In this document: positions 892 through 14,557 of the stretch, piece after piece
Layout of the letters: the number at the start of each line of letters is the position of its first letter
Position numbering within the stretch: position 1 is the stretch's first letter
Virus record (IMG/VR): IMGVR_UViG_3300022934_003465
Location: 1 to 20,225 of that record
DNA from: a virus
DNA: 20,225 nt
Strand: one strand, 5' to 3'
Made by a program: the position numbers and the translations under genes
The notes under the pieces: model-generated
The model's input: the letters and a program-made list of their open reading frames with translations, nothing else
What the model was told of the DNA's origin: nothing
The model's database searches: none

Positions 892-1725
892 TTATCCGTA
901 TAGTTCTTTATATTTATTGAGATAAAGATTTGCAATAAGTTGTTGGCCATTGGCGTTTGGGTGGGGGTCCCATTTGTCTGGTACGAGGTTTGTGAAACCG
1001 ACTTCGTGATCTGATTGTTTGCCTGGGACGAGTTTGAGGACTGAGTTTCCTCCGAGTTCTCGATGGCCGGGCCATCCTATGAAGTGGTTGGTATTGATTT
1101 TATGAAAGAGGTCGACGAGAGAGAATTCAAGGTATTCTTTACGTGCGGTGAGGTTGTTGATTTGAAGATCTTCGAGGTGTTGAAAGATCATGGGTGGAGT
1201 TCCGTGAGCGAAGATGTATTTTAGATTAAGTTCTTCGCATAGTCTTTGTAGTGTATAGACTTGTCTTGTGAATGTTTTTCCAAGAGTGTAGCCGAGGCCG
1301 CCTGGGTCAGGTTTTCGATTAAAGTAGTCTATGAGGTGTTTCGAAATTTCGTAAGGATCAGGAAGGTACATGTATCTTTCATGATTTTGATTGTGTATTG
1401 GATACACGTCATTCGGGCCGTTTTTTTCAAGGTTTAGCCAGACTCCAGGATTATATGACTCAGTGTCGTAGAGCCACATTCTTAACGTTTGACTCCATGC
1501 AATTACGACGAGTTCGATGTCGTTGTGATTATCGAGAATGTATTGAACTGATTTTTGTAAGATATAGTCATTGCCGTGGCCACCTAGGCCAAGATTGACG
1601 TCAGGTAGATCGAGTTCATTTCCAAGAAGTTCTGGCCACATTGGCCAGCCACCTACGCCTTTTCCGCGTTGTCTCCAATTTTTCATTGTAAAGCTGCAGC
1701 CGCAAGCGTATATGTGTTTTGTCAT
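892..1725 (-). CDS. SGNH/GDSL-hydrolase-like protein (copy 1)
   Basis: A 277-aa protein with the blocks of the SGNH hydrolase fold. Block I is near the N-terminus (YACGCSFT, likely nucleophile Ser11), the Gly/Asn block is GLGGHGND, a strand ELVVIAWSQ follows, and the C-terminal DPHPNANG carries the Asp-x-x-His-like pair. In this superfamily the Ser/Asp/His set hydrolyses or transfers acyl groups, including O-acetyl groups on glycans. Start choice: an upstream in-frame GTG would add 26 residues, but AGGA seven bases before the ATG at 1725 and block I directly after it favour the shorter form. It is a diverged paralogue of the next gene upstream (1816-2634). Its codons are mostly C-ending, unlike that paralogue. 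It is separated from it by 90 bp without a gene. Substrate unknown; glycan deacylation is inferred from carbamoyl- and glycosyltransferase neighbours. Confidence 0.75.
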   Translation of the reverse strand: MTKHIYACGCSFTMKNWRQRGKGVGGWPMWPELLGNELDLPDVNLGLGGHGNDYILQKSVQYILDNHNDIELVVIAWSQTLRMWLYDTESYNPGVWLNLEKNGPNDVYPIHNQNHERYMYLPDPYEISKHLIDYFNRKPDPGGLGYTLGKTFTRQVYTLQRLCEELNLKYIFAHGTPPMIFQHLEDLQINNLTARKEYLEFSLVDLFHKINTNHFIGWPGHRELGGNSVLKLVPGKQSDHEVGFTNLVPDKWDPHPNANGQQLIANLYLNKYKELYG

Positions 1726-1815
1726 TTTTCGTCCTGTTCGTAGATGTAGAGAGAACCTGTTTCTGGCGTTTCTTTTCGAAAACGTAATTTGAAAAGTCTC
1801 CACTTTATTTTTATC

Positions 1816-2634
1816 TTATTCATATATCTCTTGATATTTGTCATAGAAAACCTCTGCTATAAGTTCATGTCCTTTTTTATTTGGATGGTGATCTCCTTTA
1901 TCAGGTGCGATACGCTCTTTATCTGTTAAGATCTCAGCGCCTAAGCTCCAACCATTTATGTATGGGTGAAATGGCCAACCAATAAGAGTATGGTTGTCGA
2001 CTTCATTGAACTTTGGAGAGTTTTGGATCATCCATGCCCACTGATCTTCGTTGTAATGAAATTCTTTTCCTAAACTTTTTACGCAGTAAATATATCTGCC
2101 TTGATGAAATGCATTTAATAAATTAGCTGCTATTAATTTAATCTTATATTTTTTACAAATTTTTTGTATTCTTATGATCGTCTCAATGTGATTATTGACA
2201 ATGATTTGAAATAAATTTTCATTTTGTTGATAGTGTTCATTTGCAAGTCTTTCTTCAATCATAAATCGATAATATGGAATTGATTTTACTCTTGAAGCAG
2301 TGTCCCAGTGATCGCTCGTTCGGTCTTGTTGATCAAACCAAGCGAGAGGATTATGATGCATTAGATTATAAACACTATATCTCCATGTTTCGGTAAAACC
2401 TATTACGACGAGCTCTATGTTATCACTGTCGCTTATCACTCTATTAATGATTGATTTTTCAATCCAATCATTCGAGACTCCACATTCCGCTACGTTGACT
2501 ACAGGTTTGTCAAGCATTTTTCCAAGTAACTCCGGCCATTTTGGAAAATCTTTGTGCTCTACAATATTTGATTTAAAATTTTTATCAGTAAAGCTGCAAC
2601 CCGAAGCTAAAATGTATTTAGAAGACTCTGACAT
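1816..2634 (-). CDS. SGNH/GDSL-hydrolase-like protein (copy 2)
   Basis: A 272-aa paralogue of the protein at 892-1725, with the same order of blocks: LASGCSFT (nucleophile Ser14), then WPELLGKMLDKPVVNV, AECGVSND, the strand ELVVIGFTETW, and DHHPNKKGHELIAEVF at the end with the Asp/His pair. Both copies also share a YDKYQEIYE/LNKYKELYG C-terminus and GWP-containing segments about 60 residues before it. A nine-residue longer start exists, but GGAA placed seven bases before the ATG at 2634 favours this one. It overlaps the end of the carbamoyltransferase gene by 17 nt, so the two are probably co-translated. Codons are A/T-ending like the genes upstream. Role inferred as acyl transfer or hydrolysis on the same glycan as the carbamoyltransferase; not proven. 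Confidence 0.75.
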   Translation of the reverse strand: MSESSKYILASGCSFTDKNFKSNIVEHKDFPKWPELLGKMLDKPVVNVAECGVSNDWIEKSIINRVISDSDNIELVVIGFTETWRYSVYNLMHHNPLAWFDQQDRTSDHWDTASRVKSIPYYRFMIEERLANEHYQQNENLFQIIVNNHIETIIRIQKICKKYKIKLIAANLLNAFHQGRYIYCVKSLGKEFHYNEDQWAWMIQNSPKFNEVDNHTLIGWPFHPYINGWSLGAEILTDKERIAPDKGDHHPNKKGHELIAEVFYDKYQEIYE

Positions 2635-3967
2635 TATATTTTTCCATAAATTCTTGAGCATGGGACCAAGTGTCTACCATAGGTTGACCTTTAATATTTA
2701 GGCTCGTGTTCAGAAGCATTGGGACACCAGTCTTTTCATACCATTCTTCAAGTATAGGACGTAATATAGACTGGCAATCTTTACGAACTATTTGCACTCT
2801 TGCTGTACCGTCGACATGTGTCACTGATGAGTAATCGTGTTTTGCTTTTGCAACAAACTGCATATACTCGTTCATTGGGCCTGAAAAATATTCTTCAGCA
2901 TATTCTTCCAAGATTGCGGGTGCAAAGGGTCGAAAGAGTTGTCTACGTTTAATTTGATTAACAGTGTCTTTAATTTCTCGTCGAGGATCAGCAAGCAGGC
3001 TACGATTGCCAAGGGCACGAGGACCAAACTCTGCACGGCCATTTGCAATACCGCAATAGGCATGATCATACAAATACTCAGCAACTTCACGAGGATTGAT
3101 TTCTTGACAGATATTTGTTCCAAGGTATGGTCCTTTCCACTTTAGCTTTTTGCCATATGCTAATGCTGCAGCGCCAAGAGATGATCCACAGTCACCAGGA
3201 TTAGGCATGATCCACATATTTTTACCAAAAGCAGCGATACGACTATTCGCTACACAGTTGAGTGCTACACCACCCATGAATACGAGATTGTCGTGCTTAC
3301 AGTATAGTTGAACATAATGTAGTATTTCATTCTCAATCATGTTTTGAGCTGATGCGGCAATGTCTTCATTTCGAGCTGTAGGTAATACGTTTCCTATGCC
3401 TTTGTGGCAATTGGAATACATGTATGTACGAAGATCTGAAACATGAATTGGCTCACCATATGCAGCCATTCCCATCGTAATGTATTCATCTTCATTAGGC
3501 TTCAAGCCAATTCGTTGAGTAATAGCTGAATAGAACAAGCCAAGTGAGAATGGATATTTCTCACTCTTGATCTTCTTCATACGTGGTGTTTCACCATCCA
3601 TCCATGCATTCCAGATAGAGATCGTATCCCATTCACCTATAGAGTCAATAACAAGGATGTTACACTCATCGAATGTGGAGGTATAGAAACCAGCTGCAGC
3701 ATGAGTCTTATGATGAGAAAATGCTACATCATACTTTGTTCTTGCAGGTTTCCATCCTTGACCAGCATATAATTGACGTGTTCTTTTGAGCCAAGGCTTT
3801 TCATAAAATGAAACGACATCGGCCTCAACCATTTGTGATGGATGAAGCCAACGATCATTCTTCTTACGTGAATATCTTTCTGAGTGAGTTGCTGATAGGA
3901 TTTCATTGTTTTCAATTAGACATGCACCAGCATCATGAAATCCTTCGCTTAATCCTAATATTTTCAT
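2618..3967 (-). CDS. NodU/CmcH-family O-carbamoyltransferase
   Basis: A 449-aa member of the NodU/CmcH/TobZ carbamoyltransferase family, which moves a carbamoyl group from carbamoyl phosphate via a carbamoyl-adenylate to a hydroxyl of a sugar or other acceptor. The N-terminal ASKHA-fold domain shows GLSEGFHDAGA (residues 5-15), FSHHKTHAAAGFY with metal-binding-type histidines (85, 86, 89), and GGVALNCVANS (232-242). The C-terminal YrdC-like domain shows GRAEFGPRALGNRS (310-323), RPFAP, and LLNTSLNIKGQP (418-429). It is shorter than the usual 550-600 residues, as phage forms often are. It starts within the stop codon of the SPASM-like gene (ATGA). Established relatives decorate Nod factors and antibiotics, and a metavirome enzyme is reported to carbamoylate 5-hydroxymethylcytosine. 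Given the glycosyltransferase and SGNH neighbours I favour a glycan acceptor, but DNA cannot be excluded. Confidence 0.92.
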   Translation of the reverse strand: MKILGLSEGFHDAGACLIENNEILSATHSERYSRKKNDRWLHPSQMVEADVVSFYEKPWLKRTRQLYAGQGWKPARTKYDVAFSHHKTHAAAGFYTSTFDECNILVIDSIGEWDTISIWNAWMDGETPRMKKIKSEKYPFSLGLFYSAITQRIGLKPNEDEYITMGMAAYGEPIHVSDLRTYMYSNCHKGIGNVLPTARNEDIAASAQNMIENEILHYVQLYCKHDNLVFMGGVALNCVANSRIAAFGKNMWIMPNPGDCGSSLGAAALAYGKKLKWKGPYLGTNICQEINPREVAEYLYDHAYCGIANGRAEFGPRALGNRSLLADPRREIKDTVNQIKRRQLFRPFAPAILEEYAEEYFSGPMNEYMQFVAKAKHDYSSVTHVDGTARVQIVRKDCQSILRPILEEWYEKTGVPMLLNTSLNIKGQPMVDTWSHAQEFMEKYNVRVF

Positions 3968-4275
3968 TCTTTTACTTTACAAAATCTTTCACATTGCATA
4001 AGTGTTGTTTCTTCTTTATACCAAGACTCCACAAGAGTTTTGTTAAACCAATCATGGCTCAATATTTCTGGCATAGTCTTATTATTTAAGTTAAGATCAT
4101 CTTTATTTTCTTGATATTGTTTCATGACATTTTGTTTAAGGTGAATTTGTTTCCACTCTTCTTTTTCTGGCATAAACATAAAGTTTGCAAGATAGCAACA
4201 AGGATATACTTGGCCGTCAGGGTTAATTAGTACTTTATTATTTTTTCGCCATTTGCATTCGATGCGATATGTCAT
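3964..4275 (-). CDS. Stand-alone SPASM-like auxiliary cluster protein (cassette A)
   Basis: A 103-aa protein that looks like the C-terminal auxiliary Fe-S domain of a radical SAM/SPASM enzyme, encoded on its own. Cysteines fall at ECKW (Cys7), in the hallmark NPDGQVYPCCY (Cys26, Cys27) and in QCERFC (Cys95, Cys99). That is five cysteines, short of the seven of a classical SPASM domain, so one cluster of this or twitch type is likely. It begins inside the stop codon of the radical SAM core gene (ATGA overlap), so the two products are probably made in step and work together. A TAA precedes the ATG in its own frame, so it is not an unread extension of the core. It is clearly paralogous to the protein at 5835-6236 (shared VLINPDGQVYPCCYL, DELNLxxK, WF...SW.KEET). 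Confidence 0.8.
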   Translation of the reverse strand: MTYRIECKWRKNNKVLINPDGQVYPCCYLANFMFMPEKEEWKQIHLKQNVMKQYQENKDDLNLNNKTMPEILSHDWFNKTLVESWYKEETTLMQCERFCKVKE

Positions 4276-4979
4276 TTAAACTCAAACCTTTTGATTTTGT
4301 TATCTGCTTCTTCAAGATATTCACGCTCTCCATTCTCGTTAATGAATTCCCAAGGAGATGGTTCATATATTGTAAATCGATCTGATGGTGTGATTGACCA
4401 GGACGTGGCCCCGCATTCTTTTGTAAGCTGAATAATATCATCAACATATTCTTGATTGTGTTTAAATACAACAATAAAGCACTTAGTGTCTCCACCAGCA
4501 TCTGCAAATGCTCGCATATTTTCTAATGCTTTTGAAAGAGATACACCTCGGCGATATTTGTTATGCATTTCTTGATTGATACCATCAATATCAAATCCAC
4601 ATTGAATTCTTTTTCCGCCTAATTGACCAAGTTGAGTCCACCATTCTTTTGATCGAATTCCTCCATTAGTAAAGAGTAAGATCTTTGCAGTTGAGTTGTC
4701 AAGAATATATTTACAAATCTCTAAGATGTCCTTGTTCATAATTGGATCACCCCAGCTTCCACAAAACTCAAATGAATTAAACATATGTAAGGTGTCAATA
4801 GGATATTGCTTTTGAAAGTGACTTAGGTCATGCTGAACGAGAGGAAGCCAATCTGCTTTTCCAAGTCCATTTCTATTTGTCCTGTGGCATTGAGGGCAAG
4901 CTGCGTTACAGTATGTCGTAATGTCTACCCATGCCGTCATCTTTTCATCAATCATGGAAGAAAAGAAACCTATATTCAT
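4272..4979 (-). CDS. Radical SAM core enzyme (cassette A)
   Basis: A 235-aa radical SAM protein. The [4Fe-4S]-binding CxxxCxxC motif is YCNAACPQC (Cys24, Cys28, Cys31), placed right after the first strand (AWVDITTY) as in the family. SWGDPIMNKDILEI fits the GGEP-like SAM-binding region, and FTNGG, GFDIDGINQEMHNKYR and FIVVFKHNQEY fit later barrel strands. Such enzymes cleave SAM to a 5'-deoxyadenosyl radical; those with SPASM-type partners act mostly on peptides, but sugar and cofactor substrates are known. The chain stops after the partial barrel and the SPASM part is a separate overlapping gene. It overlaps the glycosyltransferase upstream by 4 nt (ATGA). It is a paralogue of 6208-7029. The substrate is unknown. 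Confidence 0.88.
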   Translation of the reverse strand: MNIGFFSSMIDEKMTAWVDITTYCNAACPQCHRTNRNGLGKADWLPLVQHDLSHFQKQYPIDTLHMFNSFEFCGSWGDPIMNKDILEICKYILDNSTAKILLFTNGGIRSKEWWTQLGQLGGKRIQCGFDIDGINQEMHNKYRRGVSLSKALENMRAFADAGGDTKCFIVVFKHNQEYVDDIIQLTKECGATSWSITPSDRFTIYEPSPWEFINENGEREYLEEADNKIKRFEFK

Positions 4980-5842
4980 TGTACTTTCTCTACATTAAAA
5001 AATTGATTAAATTGTTTGTTTATAATGTGAACAATCTTTGCATCTGGTGCAATAGGTTCATTTTTATTACGGTGATTCCAAACCCAATGCCATTTTGATC
5101 CAAGATCTTGAAAAGGTAAGTTGTGTATTGATATTAAAAAGGAAACAACTGACTCATTGTTTATATTGAAAAGCTTTTCTATTTCTTTTTGATAAAAATT
5201 AGTCCCTTTGGTTTTAATTCTCCACACGTCTACACCAGCCCAACTTAAAGATTTCATATAACTCATGTCTTGTATTTGCTGGCTCGTAAAACCCATAATT
5301 CCAGTATTTAATACTTTTTGTAGCTTTGACTCTACATTTCTATTTTTGCATAGTGATTTCATTAACGCATATTTTACAGCAACTGATCGTTTCATTGGCA
5401 CATAAGTTAACCAACCTTCTTCGATATTTTCTACGTTTTCAGGCCTATCATCATGAAATCCATGCATTAATATTCCTTTATTAAAATCAAAAGCTTCGAA
5501 AATATTTTCATCTGTATTAGGAATTACATCTAAATCAAAATAAACAATCTCATCATATTCTTTTGAAAACTTTTCAAGCAAATAAAACTTAAAGTGCTGG
5601 ATGGATTGATATTCTCCTTCATATATTTCTTTTTCTTTCAAATAATTTTCTAAATCATGAAATAAGTTACCATATCCTACAAGTTTGTAATCAGCATTAC
5701 ATTTTTCTGCATACTTTTTTTGTAAGTAACTAATAAGAGAAACATTTAAGTTTAAGTCATGACGCGGCTCATACTCATTTAGATCACCTCCAGCATAAGT
5801 AAAGTTTATATAAATTGAAAATATAAGTCTTTTTTTACTCAT
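4976..5842 (-). CDS. GT-A-type glycosyltransferase-like protein
   Basis: A 288-aa protein resembling GT8-like GT-A glycosyltransferases. After an N-terminal strand (RLIFSIYINF) and a helix region ending SIQHFKFYLLEKFSKEYD, it has IVYFDLDVIPN, where Asp103 and Asp105 form the DxD metal/nucleotide-sugar site. NTGIMGF near residue 190 matches the usual N-x-G region after the DxD, and IVHIINK near the end could supply the late His. No signal or membrane segment is seen, so it should act in the cytosol on an activated sugar. It lies between the two radical SAM cassettes, overlapping the upstream SPASM-like gene by 8 nt (ATGAGTAA) and the next core gene by 4. This placement suggests that sugar transfer and radical chemistry act on one substrate. 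Donor and acceptor unknown. Confidence 0.72.
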   Translation of the reverse strand: MSKKRLIFSIYINFTYAGGDLNEYEPRHDLNLNVSLISYLQKKYAEKCNADYKLVGYGNLFHDLENYLKEKEIYEGEYQSIQHFKFYLLEKFSKEYDEIVYFDLDVIPNTDENIFEAFDFNKGILMHGFHDDRPENVENIEEGWLTYVPMKRSVAVKYALMKSLCKNRNVESKLQKVLNTGIMGFTSQQIQDMSYMKSLSWAGVDVWRIKTKGTNFYQKEIEKLFNINNESVVSFLISIHNLPFQDLGSKWHWVWNHRNKNEPIAPDAKIVHIINKQFNQFFNVEKVQ

Positions 5843-6236
5843 CTACATAATGCTCACAAAACTGTCGACACTGATCTGATCTTGTTTCTTCTTTTTCCCA
5901 TGATTTAGGAAGTATTTCAGTAAACCATTTGTGATTAAGAATATCTTTCATAGATTTCTTTTTTAAATTTAACTCATCATAGTGTTTTTTATATTCTATC
6001 ATAACCATATCACCAGATCCAGCTTCAGATTCTGGATTCGTCTTCCAATACCAGTTTTCACCTTTTTGAGATAAATCTTCTACTTGGTTATTTGGACCAA
6101 ACACCCCGAGAATTTCTGTTTTAAATGCTTTATTACAAAGATAGCAACAGGGATAAACTTGTCCATCAGGATTAATAAGAATTCTACCCATTTCTTGCCA
6201 AGAGCATTTAATGTATGTCTTCTTCTTCTCCGACAT
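5835..6236 (-). CDS. Stand-alone SPASM-like auxiliary cluster protein (cassette B)
   Basis: A 133-aa paralogue of the SPASM-like protein at 3964-4275. It carries KCSW (Cys11), NPDGQVYPCCYLC (Cys30, Cys31, Cys34) and QCRQFC (Cys123, Cys127): six cysteines, one more than copy A. About 28 extra residues sit between the PCC motif and the DELNLKKK helix. The ATG at 6236 is preferred over an in-frame TTG two codons earlier because AGGA lies at good spacing from the ATG. It overlaps the radical SAM core of cassette B by 29 nt and so is likely translated by coupling. The family would bind an auxiliary Fe-S cluster and contact the substrate in a complex with the core; that two-protein arrangement is inferred. 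Confidence 0.8.
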   Translation of the reverse strand: MSEKKKTYIKCSWQEMGRILINPDGQVYPCCYLCNKAFKTEILGVFGPNNQVEDLSQKGENWYWKTNPESEAGSGDMVMIEYKKHYDELNLKKKSMKDILNHKWFTEILPKSWEKEETRSDQCRQFCEHYVDE

Positions 6237-7029
6237 TTTCAACTTTCCTTTTCATTTCTAAAAACCAAGGCTGAAACTCTGATCGAGTTTTCCAATCACT
6301 TTGAGCGTCTCTCACCTTTTTAGGTTTGTAATATGTAGTTGCTTGTTCTAAAACATCTTCTTCACCGTGTTCATTTTTAAACTCAAATACCGGCCCATCG
6401 CTAAATCGATTTGACTCTACAAAAATAACATCGATAGCACCATACGCTCTACATAGGTCAAGAATTTCTTGTAAGTAATCTTGATTATGTTTATGCACCA
6501 CACAGAATCCATCTGCTTGTGCACCTGCATCAGTGACTTCTTTCATATTTGCAAGAATTTTATCAAGCTCTGTTTTTCTACGATATTTTTCTTGCATTTC
6601 TTGGTTAATACCTTCAATAGCAAAGTCAAAGCGAATAAGTCCTTTTCCTTTACATTTTTTAGAAAGCTCACCCATTTTACGCCACCAACTTTTTGGACGA
6701 ATGCTACCATTTGTATCAATTGTAAGTTGAGTTCTAGGATTTGTATCGAGAATATATTCACAGATCTCATATAAATCCTTACACATAGCAGGATCACCCC
6801 AAGTGCCACAAATTTCCCACAAATAAGTTCTTTTCACAAGTTCTTCATCATAAGCATTTTTAAACTCTTCAAGTGTCCATTGTATTAAAGGAAGCCATTC
6901 AATTTTTCCTAATCCACCGCCCCAACGATCAGTACGATGGCATTGTGGACAGCCTGCATTACAATAAGTAGATATATCTATGAACATATGCAATTCATGA
7001 TTATCATAAAAATCTTTATATGAATTCAT
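6208..7029 (-). CDS. Radical SAM core enzyme (cassette B)
   Basis: A 273-aa radical SAM protein with the cluster motif TYCNAGCPQC (Cys23, Cys27, Cys30) after the strand HMFIDIS. Further matches to the family are CGTWGDPAM (SAM contact region), LTIDTNGSIR, DFAIEGINQEMQEKYRR and FCVVHKHNQDY. Shared segments with cassette A (CPQCHRT, LGK.EWLPL, INQEM..KYRR, AGA/AGG then a VV.KHNQ) show recent common ancestry. The C-terminus has an extra 35-40 residue charged tail (KVRDAQSDW to EEEDIH) that A lacks. Its start codon overlaps the stop of the 27-aa gene (ATGA) and its end overlaps the SPASM-like gene. No SPASM cysteines are present in this chain. Substrate unknown; the reaction would begin from reductive SAM cleavage. 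Confidence 0.88.
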   Translation of the reverse strand: MNSYKDFYDNHELHMFIDISTYCNAGCPQCHRTDRWGGGLGKIEWLPLIQWTLEEFKNAYDEELVKRTYLWEICGTWGDPAMCKDLYEICEYILDTNPRTQLTIDTNGSIRPKSWWRKMGELSKKCKGKGLIRFDFAIEGINQEMQEKYRRKTELDKILANMKEVTDAGAQADGFCVVHKHNQDYLQEILDLCRAYGAIDVIFVESNRFSDGPVFEFKNEHGEEDVLEQATTYYKPKKVRDAQSDWKTRSEFQPWFLEMKRKVENVGEEEDIH

Positions 7030-8214: not shown

Positions 8215-8291
8215 TGGCGTCCCCTGTAGGATTCGAACCCACGGCCTAGTGCTTAGAAGGCACTTGCTCTATCCTGCTGAGCTAAGGAGAC
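8215..8291 (-). tRNA. tRNA-Arg (anticodon UCU)
   Basis: A complete 77-nt cloverleaf with an encoded CCA (8215-8217). The acceptor stem is GTCTCCT/AGGGGAC with one G-U pair, the D stem GCTC/GAGC, the anticodon stem AGTGC/GCACT, and the T arm GTGGG-TTCGAAT-CCTAC with one G-U pair. The anticodon loop CTTCTAA has TCT at 8255-8257, which reads AGA and AGG arginine codons. These are frequent in this AT-rich genome (for example in the KKRTK and RKK stretches of its proteins), so the tRNA may offset scarce host supply. Its first 10 nt overlap the end of the protein gene at 8282-8521. Confidence 0.97.
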
Positions 8292-9885: not shown

Positions 9886-9972
9886 TCAATCACTTACGTT
9901 TTTTTTCTCGACCCATTTATGTAATTCGCCATAATCTGTACAATCGTCACAAGGATCATCCGAATCAGTCAT
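9886..9972 (-). CDS. 28-aa acidic CxxC peptide
   Basis: A 28-codon frame whose ATG overlaps the stop of the DUF115-like gene (ATGA), the same coupling used throughout the glycan block. The product starts MTDSDDPCDDCTDYGELHKW and ends in a lysine-rich tail. The single CxxC pair in an acidic setting could bind a metal as half a zinc site, perhaps in a dimer, but a chance reading frame cannot be excluded because it is short and its ribosome-binding site (AGG nine bases upstream) is modest. It is the last frame before promoter P4. Confidence 0.45.
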   Translation of the reverse strand: MTDSDDPCDDCTDYGELHKWVEKKNVSD

Positions 9973-10574
9973 TTTCTTTTACCTAATCTTAGTTCTACAT
10001 TTTCAGGCAACTTAATAAGAGGGTCCACCTCTTTATGATAATATAATACAAATTGGGTATTGGAAAATTCTTTAAAAATACCTTGCCAAACAGGACGCCA
10101 GTTATTTGTTAGCCTTTGAGTATTATTTATCTGTCTATCACTACTCATATATGCATCTGTGCAAGATGTTATGTCAAAAGCAAATAAAGTATCAAATCCA
10201 TACATATGGATTTCTTCAGCAGCTAGCTTTTTAGCTGAATAATGTGTTGCCATATGTCCACAATTAAAGTTTGTGTAATTAATAGCATATTTTGGAAGAT
10301 CTAAGTGATACTCTTTGATCTGAGCAGCATATCGCATATGAAATGCAGGCTTCATTTCCATCCATTTCTTAGGTCTAGCTCCAAGTGTCCAGTCACCTGG
10401 TACTGTGACTACACCATCAGCAATTGCTTTCATCATTTTAAAATCTACCATACAAGTGGTATATGCATTCGCAATTTCAAATGGAGGAAGATTACATGTT
10501 ATTTTTAAACCTTTTGATGGTTTATATAATCCTGCTGATTTCCCATTGCCAATGACGTGGGCTACTTTAGTCAT
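9969..10574 (-). CDS. DUF115/GT42-like protein (GNGxS motif)
   Basis: A 201-aa protein with an N-terminal VAHVIGNGKSAGLY motif (residues 4-17), like the GNGPS start of DUF115/MptE-like and GT42 sialyltransferase-like proteins. The pattern continues with a CN at residues 27-28, VDFKMM, and the later block HMATHYSAKKLAAEEIHMYGFD, which fits the central Rossmann strand and helix of the same group. Its ending is basic (LGKRK). Members transfer sugars from CMP-activated donors or carry pyrophosphokinase activity, so the exact reaction here is open. It is the last large enzyme of the glycan block, overlapping the GT-A gene before it by 8 nt. No signal peptide is present. Confidence 0.6.
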   Translation of the reverse strand: MTKVAHVIGNGKSAGLYKPSKGLKITCNLPPFEIANAYTTCMVDFKMMKAIADGVVTVPGDWTLGARPKKWMEMKPAFHMRYAAQIKEYHLDLPKYAINYTNFNCGHMATHYSAKKLAAEEIHMYGFDTLFAFDITSCTDAYMSSDRQINNTQRLTNNWRPVWQGIFKEFSNTQFVLYYHKEVDPLIKLPENVELRLGKRK

Positions 10575-11166
10575 TCATCATACTCCGAATATGTTCTTTA
10601 CCTTTACGACCTGTCCAATGCATAATTTTTATATTTTTAGGTTCTGTTTTATCTAATAAATCTAATCTAAGTGTATTATATTCTCTTGGAACGTCTGATA
10701 TATGTATCATTCTTCTCATTCCATCTTTTACAAGAGCATGTAACACTTCTTGGTCTCCTATTTGTGGATTTGATTTGCATGCTGCAGCCCATTCAGATAA
10801 TATGTTAGGATAACTTTTAAATAAAACAACACCACTATTATGCCATGTCTCTCCTCTTCTTTTTGACCAAGGGACATCTTCTATCATGGATAATTTATTA
10901 GGTGCTGTATAAGACCAAAGATCGTTTAAGTTAGATCTTACTTCACAGTCAGTGTCAAGCCAACACACTTTATTTGCTAATTTTGCAGCATCCATCATAG
11001 CAGCAGGCTTTTTAAACCAACCTTTCATACTTGGCTCAAACTTATCAAAATCATACACTTTTAAGTGTGCGTCTGGATTATACTTGTAAAAGTTATCTTG
11101 GAACCAAGGGAGCATCCACTTAGTTGTGTTGTCACAGCCTGTAATAAATAAGTTAGAGAATTTCAT
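10567..11166 (-). CDS. GT-A glycosyltransferase-like protein (WLDTD)
   Basis: A 199-aa protein with features of small GT8/GT32-like glycosyltransferases. VCWLDTDCEV holds the DxD pair Asp71 and Asp73. NSGVVLFK (the common N-x-G after the DxD), GDQEVLH and IMHWTGRKGKEH near the end (His and Lys binding diphosphate) follow in the expected order. The ATG at 11166 has GGAG six bases upstream; a start six codons earlier lacks this. The gene begins inside the previous one (14-nt overlap) and ends inside the DUF115-like gene. A cytosolic enzyme adding a sugar to a growing glycan is the likely role; donor unknown. Confidence 0.75.
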   Translation of the reverse strand: MKFSNLFITGCDNTTKWMLPWFQDNFYKYNPDAHLKVYDFDKFEPSMKGWFKKPAAMMDAAKLANKVCWLDTDCEVRSNLNDLWSYTAPNKLSMIEDVPWSKRRGETWHNSGVVLFKSYPNILSEWAAACKSNPQIGDQEVLHALVKDGMRRMIHISDVPREYNTLRLDLLDKTEPKNIKIMHWTGRKGKEHIRSMMND

Positions 11167-11800
11167 AGCCTTCTCCGTAACCATGTTTAGCTAAACATCC
11201 TCTTTCATTTTGAATTGTAGTAAAAGCATCTCTTGCTTCTACTTTCCAAGGGTAATTTTCTTGTAGCCAAGGGAAAGTATCTATGTGTAAAAAAACATCT
11301 GTAGGCTTAGCATGGATCTTTGCTTGTTTAATTAGCTCTTTAGCGCCATTACTGTTCATTCTGTAAGCATGAGCTCCGCCAAAATATTTTTTATGAACTA
11401 AAGGCTGAGTGCCAAGGGCTGTTGGAATGTTAAATTTACCATAAGAAGGTTTACCTAAGTTTACAACTTTATTAAAAGGGATTGTACTGTTAAGTTGATT
11501 TACGACAACTGCGTCATGTTCAAATATTGTGGTTGTGTCATGATATTCTGCTGCAAGTTTCCATATGTTATAATGAGATAAGAAAGCAGCCAAACAATTG
11601 TCCAACCTAGAATATACTTCTTTGAATCCATCAACATTAATTCCTTCCTCTTTGGCCATAGCATATATGTCTGTGTTATATGGTGTAATGGCTTTAAATT
11701 TTTCTATTCTAGTGCCATGACGTGCACCAGATGCAATGCAACGTTCAGCAATTTGAACAGATCTTGGAATGTCTTCAATTGTAATTACATAATTTTTCAT
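11153..11800 (-). CDS. GT25-like glycosyltransferase (first of two)
   Basis: A 215-aa protein matching the GT25 (LPS/LOS-type glycosyltransferase) pattern. It starts NYVITIEDIPRSVQIAERC, has LAAFLSHYNIWKLA (the conserved S-H-x-x-x-W, residues 75-80) and TIFEHDAVV, where the EHD at 94-96 fills the E-D-D position of the family. GGAHAYRMNSNGAKELI is the typical acceptor-side segment. Bacterial relatives add galactose or other sugars to lipooligosaccharide. It shares the same layout with the next gene upstream and is a diverged paralogue. Overlaps are 4 nt upstream and 14 nt downstream. Acting on a host or virion glycan is inferred. Confidence 0.78.
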   Translation of the reverse strand: MKNYVITIEDIPRSVQIAERCIASGARHGTRIEKFKAITPYNTDIYAMAKEEGINVDGFKEVYSRLDNCLAAFLSHYNIWKLAAEYHDTTTIFEHDAVVVNQLNSTIPFNKVVNLGKPSYGKFNIPTALGTQPLVHKKYFGGAHAYRMNSNGAKELIKQAKIHAKPTDVFLHIDTFPWLQENYPWKVEARDAFTTIQNERGCLAKHGYGEGYEIL

Positions 11801-12492
11801 AGCGTTGTAGTACTTGGTAAACCTTGAACTCTTGTATAAAATTTACGAGTGACTCCTAATTTATTAACCAGTTGTCTACACATCATAGCATCATTTGGCC
11901 AGACACCATGTTTATACGTAAGTGATATCATTTGTTCTGCACCTTCAGGTGTCATAATATAAGCAGAATTTCCAGCTAATCCTTGTGGCATTTTTATATC
12001 TTCATCGATGTATGGTGTGTATTGAAATGCATCCCAACTATCTACGATCTTATCATAATAATCATGTGCCTTACGAGTAGCCATTAATGGATTATTGATA
12101 CCTAAGATTTGAAACTTTGTATCTCTAATATCAAAATCTACTCTATTCACAAACATTGCATCATGCTCAAGAATAAGCATTGGTTCTTTTAGTTCAAAGC
12201 ACATCTGCCACAAATTAAAGTGACTCATTGAGCATGCTTTTCTTTTTCTTTTGTCTTTTGTTTGATATGCTTTTTTAGTAAGTCCAGTGGCAAAATCTAC
12301 GACCTCACCTTCCCAAGGCCAGTTCCACTTAACATCAGATTCTTCCATAATTTGCTCTACATTTGATGGAGTAATAGCATCATAACGTAAAACTTTAAAC
12401 TCATTACCTACACTCTTAGAGCTGGTAACCAAATTTTTATAGCCAGCCTCAGATACAGCATTATCTTTTATTGTAATTGCATAAGCTATCAT
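11797..12492 (-). CDS. GT25-like glycosyltransferase (second of two)
   Basis: A 231-aa GT25-like protein. It begins AYAITIKDNAVSEAGYKNL, has ACSMSHFNLWQM (S-H-x-x-x-W, residues 90-95), LILEHDAMF with EHD at 109-111, and GNSAYIMTPEGAEQMI. These match the order and spacing of its neighbour at 11153-11800, so the two likely arose by duplication and now add different sugars or linkages. A lysine/arginine-rich stretch (KDKRKRKAC) precedes the SH motif. It overlaps the methyltransferase-like gene by 4 nt and the other GT25 gene by 4 nt (ATGA both times). No membrane segment. Confidence 0.78.
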   Translation of the reverse strand: MIAYAITIKDNAVSEAGYKNLVTSSKSVGNEFKVLRYDAITPSNVEQIMEESDVKWNWPWEGEVVDFATGLTKKAYQTKDKRKRKACSMSHFNLWQMCFELKEPMLILEHDAMFVNRVDFDIRDTKFQILGINNPLMATRKAHDYYDKIVDSWDAFQYTPYIDEDIKMPQGLAGNSAYIMTPEGAEQMISLTYKHGVWPNDAMMCRQLVNKLGVTRKFYTRVQGLPSTTTL

Positions 12493-13106
12493 TTATCAAT
12501 CTTCATAATATAACTGTCAGGCTCGCCAGAACCTTCACGTAAGTCAAATTCTGTTGTCTTTGATACTGGAATTTGTTCCATAAAGTAATCCATCTCTGAT
12601 TTATTATATCTTTCTGGATATTTTTTAACCCAAGGATGATTAAACTCTTCATCTTTCATAATATGTAAAGGCCAGACATCTTCAACAAAATACATTCCAC
12701 TTTCTTCTTTTAAGAACGGATAAAATACATTAAATGTCTGTCCATTAGCTCTTGGCGTATGTAAGCCATCGTCTAAAATTACATCAAACTCTACACCGTC
12801 CCACACTGTAGCAATTAAATCTCTAGTTGCTGTTTTTGTTGAGTCTGCTCGGATCCACTTTACTCTTTCATTTTGCAACACTGGTACATCTTTTGGATCA
12901 ATGCGGTGAAATGTATCAACACCATAGAATGTTGCGTTAGGAAAAAAATCTAGCCAAGCCTCAATACTATTTCCTCTAAATACTCCAATTTCTAGAAAAT
13001 TGATTGGCATGTTTCTCATACCATCAAACTCTGGCTCATATACTTTATGATATCCGTGTTTCTTTGCTTTATCGCAGCCATACTTATTAAATAATAATTC
13101 AAGCAT
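12489..13106 (-). CDS. SAM-dependent O-methyltransferase-like protein
   Basis: A 205-aa class I methyltransferase-like protein of the macrocin/rhamnosyl O-methyltransferase type. The opening LLFNKYGCDKAKKHGYHKVY is characteristic of that group. FLEIGVFRGNS (residues 37-47) is the SAM-binding motif I, YGVDTF gives the acidic residue after strand 2 (Asp64), and VILDDGLHT (Asp112, Asp113, His116) supplies the likely metal and catalytic residues. Relatives methylate sugar hydroxyls in natural products. The ATG at 13106 is chosen over a TTG 17 codons earlier because AAGGA precedes it. It overlaps the sulfotransferase gene by 8 nt (ATGCTTGA). Likely modifies the glycan made by the neighbouring transferases. 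Confidence 0.8.
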   Translation of the reverse strand: MLELLFNKYGCDKAKKHGYHKVYEPEFDGMRNMPINFLEIGVFRGNSIEAWLDFFPNATFYGVDTFHRIDPKDVPVLQNERVKWIRADSTKTATRDLIATVWDGVEFDVILDDGLHTPRANGQTFNVFYPFLKEESGMYFVEDVWPLHIMKDEEFNHPWVKKYPERYNKSEMDYFMEQIPVSKTTEFDLREGSGEPDSYIMKIDK

Positions 13107-13782
13107 TCCAGTAATTCCTTGTTGCTCCTGTATCAAAATCAAATCCCCAGTGATCAATATCTTTCTTGTACCAATCTGCTACAATTTGTATTGTCTCTGG
13201 AGTATATATGTCTTGATAACTACCTTCATTTAAAGCAGTAACATTACGAGCTCTGGACATTTCTTTTAAATTAAAATATTTACATAAGTCATCGTTTAAA
13301 TGTTCAAATCGTAGCATATCAACTTTTACTATACCAGATTCATCACAAACATGATCATATGCAGGATACCAACCTCTTACAGCACGGTGCCACATATATT
13401 TTTCATTGCCCCACTTGTGTCGTTCTTCAAGAAAAGCTTCGAAGGTTGATACATTAGCATAAGATGGTTTAACTTTTTTCTCTACCTCTATTACTTTCTT
13501 GGCGAAGAAGTAACGGCTAACCACACGATCCCAAGGATTGCGAATGACAGCAAAGGAGTTGTTTGTGTCACGTACTGAGGGATGTATGTCACGGTACCTG
13601 GCGTGTTCAAAACCATGATGATCTCCTAGTGAATTCATTTTATCTAAAACCGCCTGAGAATAAGACGGTGATTTATGTACATTAGATCCGGCTGGAATAA
13701 TTTTATTTACTAGCATAGGACTCTTACGAATCGTCATGCCAGCGTTTTTTGGAATGTGTATAAAAAGTTTTTTAAGCGACAT
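13099..13782 (-). CDS. Sulfotransferase (PAPS-dependent, Sulfotransfer_2-like)
   Basis: A 227-aa sulfotransferase. FIHIPKNAGMTI (residues 7-18) is the 5'-phosphosulfate loop, and FAVIRNPWDRVVSRYFF carries the 3'-phosphate-binding Arg81 and Ser89. The DHHGFEHARY segment between them could supply the catalytic base, and W...YPAYDHV and LRFEHLNDD are common later elements. The family moves sulfate from PAPS to hydroxyl or amino groups of glycans. The phage would depend on host PAPS; no PAPS synthesis gene is in the window. It overlaps the GT-A gene upstream by 11 nt and the methyltransferase gene by 8. A sulfated, methylated glycan product is the direct reading of this arrangement. Confidence 0.9.
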   Translation of the reverse strand: MSLKKLFIHIPKNAGMTIRKSPMLVNKIIPAGSNVHKSPSYSQAVLDKMNSLGDHHGFEHARYRDIHPSVRDTNNSFAVIRNPWDRVVSRYFFAKKVIEVEKKVKPSYANVSTFEAFLEERHKWGNEKYMWHRAVRGWYPAYDHVCDESGIVKVDMLRFEHLNDDLCKYFNLKEMSRARNVTALNEGSYQDIYTPETIQIVADWYKKDIDHWGFDFDTGATRNYWNA

Positions 13783-14557
13783 CTTTCATAAGCTCTTCTA
13801 CGTTTTCACCTTTATTTGGTAATTTATCTTTCAAGAAAAAGTGGACAAAATATGCATCTTTAATTTTTTCAGGTTTAACTGCAGTGTAAAGAGCGTTCCA
13901 TTTATATTCTAAGTGCTGTAACTTCATTTTCTCTTCTCTAATCCAAGTGTTAAGAAGAGTCTGGTCGGTAGACCATTTCCAAGGTCCTAACCCGTCAATA
14001 AAAGGTTTAAACCTAGGTCTAGAAAGAAATTGCTGTGGCGTTTCACCGTTTAGATATTTTCCAAACGATTTATTCATAATCATAACACCCATGTTGAAGA
14101 ACTCACCACCACGACCGTTCCATTTCCAATCAACATTTTTGATATTTGAATATTGCATACGAGAATAGTTTTTAATCTTATTAATATACCAACTTTGAAT
14201 TGGCATGTCACGTTCTATGACGCCAGCAAAAGCCACATCTGGATCGAGAATATCAAAAACATTAGGACTACCGGGTCTAACCCATACGTCACTATCAATG
14301 ATCGCAACTTGATCATAAGTTTTAAGATACGTAAACGCATTTTCTTTCTCATAAATTGGTAAGTAGCCACCATACTTTTCGTATGATTCCTTGCTTCTAT
14401 TCGTGTTAAAGGGATCTGGTTTAATCATTAATATAGGTGTACGCTGACACTCGTAGTCAGCACCAATTTCTTTTGCATATGCTTTAACCGAGGCCGTACA
14501 GTGATCGTATAGCCTCGATTTTTTTCCTACATAAACTTGATATATCAATCTTTTCAT
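13772..14557 (-). CDS. GT-A glycosyltransferase-like protein (IIDSDV)
   Basis: A 261-aa glycosyltransferase-like protein. RLIYQVYVGKKSRLYDHC opens the fold, VAIIDSDVWVRP holds the DxD pair Asp88 and Asp90, and GGEFFNMGVMIMNKS is the usual N-x-G region. WSTDQTLLNTW follows as in GT8-like enzymes, and AYFVHFFLKDKLP near the end carries a late His. Its overall layout recalls the GT at 4976-5842 (start RLI..., FxxDxDV), suggesting distant kinship. It is the first gene of the seven-gene glycan chain and begins 15 nt after the EF-hand gene. No transmembrane segment is seen. Donor and acceptor unknown. Confidence 0.75.
   Translation of the reverse strand: MKRLIYQVYVGKKSRLYDHCTASVKAYAKEIGADYECQRTPILMIKPDPFNTNRSKESYEKYGGYLPIYEKENAFTYLKTYDQVAIIDSDVWVRPGSPNVFDILDPDVAFAGVIERDMPIQSWYINKIKNYSRMQYSNIKNVDWKWNGRGGEFFNMGVMIMNKSFGKYLNGETPQQFLSRPRFKPFIDGLGPWKWSTDQTLLNTWIREEKMKLQHLEYKWNALYTAVKPEKIKDAYFVHFFLKDKLPNKGENVEELMKDVA

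Follow-up and report, generated by a model that had tools for sequence, protein, structure and literature searches.

Radical SAM cores encoded beside separate twitch-like Fe-S proteins in a phage gene cluster: probable two-protein enzymes with a likely role in sugar modification

To our knowledge, radical SAM enzymes that carry auxiliary clusters are single chains. Among those of solved structure, SkfB acts on a peptide and BtrN on an aminocyclitol. In marine T4-like phages, radical SAM cassettes have been described next to glycosyltransferases in the host recognition cluster (PMC7029224), and one T4-like genome carries 12 radical SAM genes (PMC5332604); the passages on these cassettes in the two accounts do not describe a split between core and auxiliary part. 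Our literature search, which had most subscription journals outside its range, found no split radical SAM/SPASM enzyme.

The window analyzed here, by which we mean the whole stretch of DNA, is a 20,225-base linear virus record with T4-like genes for T4 RNase H and PhoH, the latter at about 49% to Synechococcus T4-like phages. A tRNA-Arg (tct) gene lies at 8215-8291. Seven minus-strand genes run from 7029 down to 1816, each overlapping the next, and read as one operon. The run begins with radical SAM core A (6208..7029, 273 aa; CNAGCPQC at residues 23-30; PF04055, 50.9 bits), followed by a twitch-like Fe-S auxiliary protein A (5835..6236, 133 aa from the ATG; PF13186, 30.2 bits) that overlaps the core gene by 29 nt, has AAGGA upstream of its start and could also begin at a TTG, giving 5835-6242. 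A GT8-like glycosyltransferase gene (4976..5842; PF01501, E 2.6e-4, 21.1 bits, under the cut-off of 24.3) sits between this pair and the next, which consists of radical SAM core B (4272..4979, 235 aa; CNAACPQC at residues 24-31; PF04055, 52.0 bits) and the twitch-like auxiliary protein B (3964..4275, 103 aa; PF13186, 26.5 bits, and the cysteine pattern), overlapping by 4 nt at ATGA. A NodU/Nol-like carbamoyltransferase gene (2618..3967; PF16861 163.7, PF02543 123.7 and phrog_1601 302.9 bits) overlaps auxiliary gene B by another 4 nt, and the operon ends with an SGNH/GDSL-like protein (1816..2661; weak PF19547 and PF00657 matches under cut-off). A second, paralogous SGNH-like protein of the same cluster, also on the minus strand, is found at 892..1803, with a weak PF19547 match. 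A preliminary description of this DNA had recognized two cassettes of radical SAM core and SPASM-like gene on either side of a glycosyltransferase, and both its coordinates and its motifs hold up: CNAxCPQCH, with the CxxxCxxC of the superfamily, is present in both cores, which lie above the PF04055 cut-off of 29.5 bits, and both auxiliary proteins exceed the 21.5 bits of PF13186 (SPASM).

The class of the auxiliary part needed revision. It had been called SPASM-like with 5 and 6 cysteines, and these counts are right (5 in auxiliary B, 6 in auxiliary A), with five in common in the order C, CC, CxxxC. The same five (L089 residues 248, 267, 268, 330 and 334) are invariant across 93 sequences of split and fused forms, as opposed to the seven cysteines of SPASM, and the window proteins score below the cut-off of TIGR04085. 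Five invariant cysteines are enough for one auxiliary [4Fe-4S] cluster, as expected of a twitch domain, and the auxiliary part looks like a one-cluster domain of this type rather than a depleted SPASM. On the core side, the three cysteines of CxxxCxxC are invariant in 20 aligned cores, and an extra cysteine in a CGTWGDP motif is nearly so.

A close-relative search with core A gave no match, but profile searches did find relatives, the nearest being L084 for core A (70-71%) and L090 for core B (54%). The only matches among phage isolates were distant proteins of Campylobacter phages, with about 32-35% identity, and cassette B had no match in plasmid DNA. Campylobacter phage CP220 (L006) carries at least 6 genes annotated as radical SAM within about 15 kb, close to genes for nucleotide-sugar transferase and amidinotransferase. 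Family loci were gathered by profile searches of viral contigs and then classified in six frames. Among 164 family cores selected by score, 132 had a separate auxiliary gene directly downstream, 24 were single-chain and 8 were other cases, a tally of contig occurrences that includes near-copies and is not a species count; the ratio of 132 to 24 is also a biased frequency, since the loci were retrieved with sequence patterns derived from cores and auxiliary parts. Counting distinct cores with an adjacent auxiliary part gave 72 split and 21 fused, and representatives at 90% core identity gave 59 and 18. The other cases include a core truncated by the contig end (L050), a short fragment (L082) whose longer copies, L080 and L083, carry an auxiliary gene 2.7 kb upstream of the core, and one identical core common to L021-L024, which in L021 and L024 has an auxiliary gene just upstream, in reversed order. 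The single polypeptide typical of known radical SAM/SPASM-twitch enzymes is found neither here nor in 132 of the 164 family cores. The preliminary description had argued that the split is no sequencing slip and suggests a stable two-protein enzyme, and had named mostly single-chain homologues, with this genome broken, as an outcome that would refute it; the survey found the reverse, with the two-gene state stable, widespread and in the majority.

The near-universal overlap of core and auxiliary genes (55 of 59 split representatives) might still be taken as a sign of errors in assembly or sequencing, or of programmed frameshifting that joins the product. However, the split occurs in dozens of independent, diverged phages, and the auxiliary frame relative to the core is +1 in 33 of the 59 representatives, +2 in 24 and in frame in 2. 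Shine-Dalgarno-like sequences were found at 29 of 59 auxiliary starts compared with 8% of control ATGs, a contrast somewhat inflated because candidate starts were picked partly by that score. Since both shifted frames are used and many starts carry such a sequence, we conclude that the auxiliary genes have starts of their own, and a frameshifted fusion was rejected. The reversed order in L021 and L024 and the 2.7 kb distance in L080 and L083 also count against error or frameshifting, which has practically no chance of being correct and is, for the family, already refuted. Core and auxiliary distances are correlated across split pairs (r 0.54; 0 of 2000 permutations), which speaks for a partnership of the two proteins, as do their union in single-chain relatives and the cysteines common to both forms.

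The fused phage homologue L089 was modelled with 110 family sequences, giving a confident model (pLDDT 93.1, pTM 0.92) with a dip at about residues 221-250. In the alignment, split cores fill the N-terminal part of L089 to about residue 225-240, with some scattered residues beyond, and auxiliary rows fill it from about residue 243. Both copies in the window had been said to break at the same domain border, and that border is the linker of the modelled protein. L089 aligns along its length to the solved structures of SuiB, BlsE, SkfB, anSME, MoaA, PqqE, DesII and BtrN, with Z 20.3 over 267 aligned residues for BlsE (7vob), Z 19.4 for SkfB and Z 15.7 for BtrN. The structural neighbours mix peptide-modifying enzymes (SuiB, SkfB, anSME) with sugar and nucleoside enzymes. 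Auxiliary A modelled alone with AF2 reached pLDDT 80.2 and pTM 0.72 and had no usable PDB match by Foldseek or VIA-align. In the fused model the auxiliary domain packs on the core as in SkfB and BtrN, suggesting that the split proteins could share a similar interface.

In genome_contigs, 36 loci were matched, and 34 of these, which are all of the bacterial-assembly loci holding both parts, have core and twitch-like domain in one chain; L166 and L167 look like phage contigs, leaving 32 bacterial loci. These relatives (L168, L172, L174, L177, L190 and others) have the same core motifs and the same twitch-like domain in the same order as the window pairs, and the split genes evidently share descent with the single chains. 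In L190, the cyanobacterial member scanned, TPR repeats lie between the core and the twitch-like part, so the junction appears to tolerate insertion as well as breakage. In a tree of 71 cores rooted on bacteria, the phage family forms one clade (support 100/100), and the fused and split states must have interchanged at least four times, by which a single simple fission is rejected. Split forms occupy the deepest phage branches, the clade with core A of the window (99/89) among them, with support of 77-94 for the deep branches, where the branching order is moderately supported. With that support, fused phage forms may be re-fusions, or the split may have arisen several times. L085 is split, is 73% identical to the neighbouring fused L089 and breaks at a shortened linker; judged from its place among fused relatives of 68-74% identity, it is an independent fission.

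The tree also bears on how the window came to hold two cassettes. Identity is 47% between the two cores and 50% between the two auxiliary parts; core A groups with L084, L070 and L058, core B with L090. Given the 47% identity and the different subclades, the two are old paralogues and not a local duplication; they are two old lineages meeting in the window phage, and the earlier term "duplication" is misleading. The accompanying proposal of two successive radical steps on one product found no support here.

Several neighbour families recur across 73 loci. GT8-like genes were present in 38, glycosyltransferase (GT)/methyltransferase-like genes in 36 (a mixed group assigned from sequence, for the most part with no Pfam support), fibre-like genes in 25, SGNH-like in 16 and carbamoyltransferase in 13. 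At least one of four sugar-related families (GT-like, GT/methyltransferase-like, carbamoyltransferase or SGNH-like) was present in 53 of the 73, and 20 had none of them within the flank examined. A frequent order is fibre-like, GT/methyltransferase-like, GT8-like, core, auxiliary and then a match to L-shaped tail fibre assembly protein, and other loci adjoin gp55 and further T4 core genes. At least two radical SAM genes occur in 37 of the 73 loci. The core gene of L037 (1363-2082) shares 4 nt with a gene for an A-type Fe-S carrier (1058-1366; PF01521); the carrier family is also seen in L003, L064, L019 and L101. L003 additionally encodes an unusually short DegT/DnrJ aminotransferase (5408-6010), with 200 aa against a PF01041 profile length of 360. 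In the window itself, a second glycan-type cluster at 9969-14557 holds two GT25 (LPS type) genes together with Sulfotransfer_2, methyltransferase-like and GT8-like genes.

We think it likely that each cassette encodes a two-protein radical SAM enzyme whose small subunit is twitch-like and whose substrate is probably a sugar. The core would bind the SAM [4Fe-4S] cluster, and the separate small protein would carry one auxiliary Fe-S cluster and dock at the site that the C-terminal domain occupies on the core of single-chain relatives. SAM cleavage and the abstraction of a hydrogen atom would fall to the core, with the auxiliary protein completing the active site and relaying an electron. Sugar modification is our best guess since most neighbouring genes are for glycosyltransferases, methyltransferases, carbamoyltransferases or fibre-like proteins. 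The sugar could be free, bound to a nucleotide or already part of a glycan, and we infer that the product probably feeds the phage glycosyl-, methyl-, sulfo- and carbamoyltransferases, which would decorate tail-fibre proteins or the host surface.

It is possible, though we consider it unlikely, that the substrate is instead a peptide or protein, such as a virion tail protein that the two-protein enzyme would crosslink or epimerize. ChlB, together with SkfB, SuiB and anSME, is among the best whole-length fold matches of L089, and virion/fibre-like families (4, 12 and 41) or the tail-fibre assembly family (10) are found in 28 of the 73 loci. Pelagibacter phage Mosig has a family 4 homologue immediately downstream of VrlC, a position that belongs to the host recognition cluster in the account that mentions radical SAM cassettes there (PMC7029224). 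However, by-eye inspection found no conserved small precursor ORF beside the pairs, glycosyltransferases, carbamoyltransferases and sugar-nucleotide enzymes make up most of the neighbours, and several sites are away from fibre genes, for example beside gp55. A sugar substrate is also preferred over phage DNA bases or nucleotides, whose hypermodification by this enzyme we judge very improbable. Viperin-like nucleotide enzymes do occur among the fold matches, and phage glycosyltransferases can modify DNA. Against this, GT25 (LPS type), sulfotransferase and carbamoyltransferase neighbours fit surface glycans, and the glycosyltransferases of pelagimyophages have been argued likewise to serve surface glycans, in the part of that work dealing with them (PMC7029224).

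The two-subunit reading has also to be weighed against one in which the auxiliary protein stands on its own, as an Fe-S electron donor or scaffold for several radical SAM proteins. In L120 (4986-5805) and L130 (4983-5837), two different auxiliary genes follow a single family core, although both loci are on fragments (G025 and G049) and a second core may lie elsewhere; together with the distance between core and auxiliary genes in L080 and L083 and the frequency of loci with several radical SAM genes, this arrangement suits a shared donor. On the other hand, the auxiliary part is one covalent chain with the core in every bacterial-assembly relative that has both, and likewise for 24 phage cores, the fused model fixes its position firmly (pTM 0.92), and the cysteine pattern is identical in split and fused forms, so that we regard a free-standing donor as rather improbable. 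If the auxiliary protein is a subunit, it could be an exchangeable one, with one core pairing with different twitch proteins that each set a different substrate or reaction, a tentative idea that we would not expect to be right. In L021 and L024 the order is auxiliary 1, core 1, core 2, auxiliary 2, and the two auxiliaries of L120 and L130 are each closer to a different one of L024's pair. An exchangeable subunit fits these loci, L080 and L083 and the auxiliary-GT fusions described below, without being proven by them, and if true, would mean that gaining or exchanging a small subunit lets phages vary their radical chemistry.

Other arrangements of the auxiliary domain were also seen. A second, divergent stand-alone cysteine-rich auxiliary (cluster 21) follows a second kind of lone core in five loci (L030:3801-4157, L060:6715-7047, L086:4691-4984, L107:5985-6356 and L122:7066-7434). 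In L128 (7133-8224) and L148 (7116-8246), the protein encoded directly after a lone core is GT-like and bears a related twitch-like domain at its N-terminus, in keeping with a sugar context; the L148 fusion had no Pfam or NCBIfam match.

A natural family with a separate auxiliary protein and close fused relatives makes the role of an auxiliary cluster directly addressable, as the auxiliary protein could be left out, added back or exchanged. With fibre and glycan-decoration genes beside it, the family is also a pointer to radical chemistry on sugars or proteins in marine phages.

Compared with described systems, the best solved-structure match by profile (weak, 24 bits) and by Foldseek E-value is BlsE (7vob), a cytosylglucuronate decarboxylase that shares a radical SAM core and C-terminal Fe-S domain over nearly the whole length. 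BlsE, however, is a single chain of about 15% identity, and the scores against its model TIGR04466 are 20.3 bits for L089 and 25.9 for core B, far under the cut-off of 400. NF033640 (N_Twi_rSAM), the model for twitch domain-containing radical SAM proteins, has a cut-off of 170, above the 35.5 bits of core A and the 135 bits of a companion gene in L133 (5360-6364). That companion has its SPASM match at the N-terminus (residues 4-67), the opposite domain order to the window family; similar single-chain radical SAM companions near NF033640 occur in other loci. SkfB (6efn) and BtrN (4m7t) combine a core with a small one-cluster domain, like the fold of the fused homologue, but are single chains, unlike the window pairs. 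The bacterial relatives, too, are one polypeptide, whereas the window enzymes are encoded by two genes.
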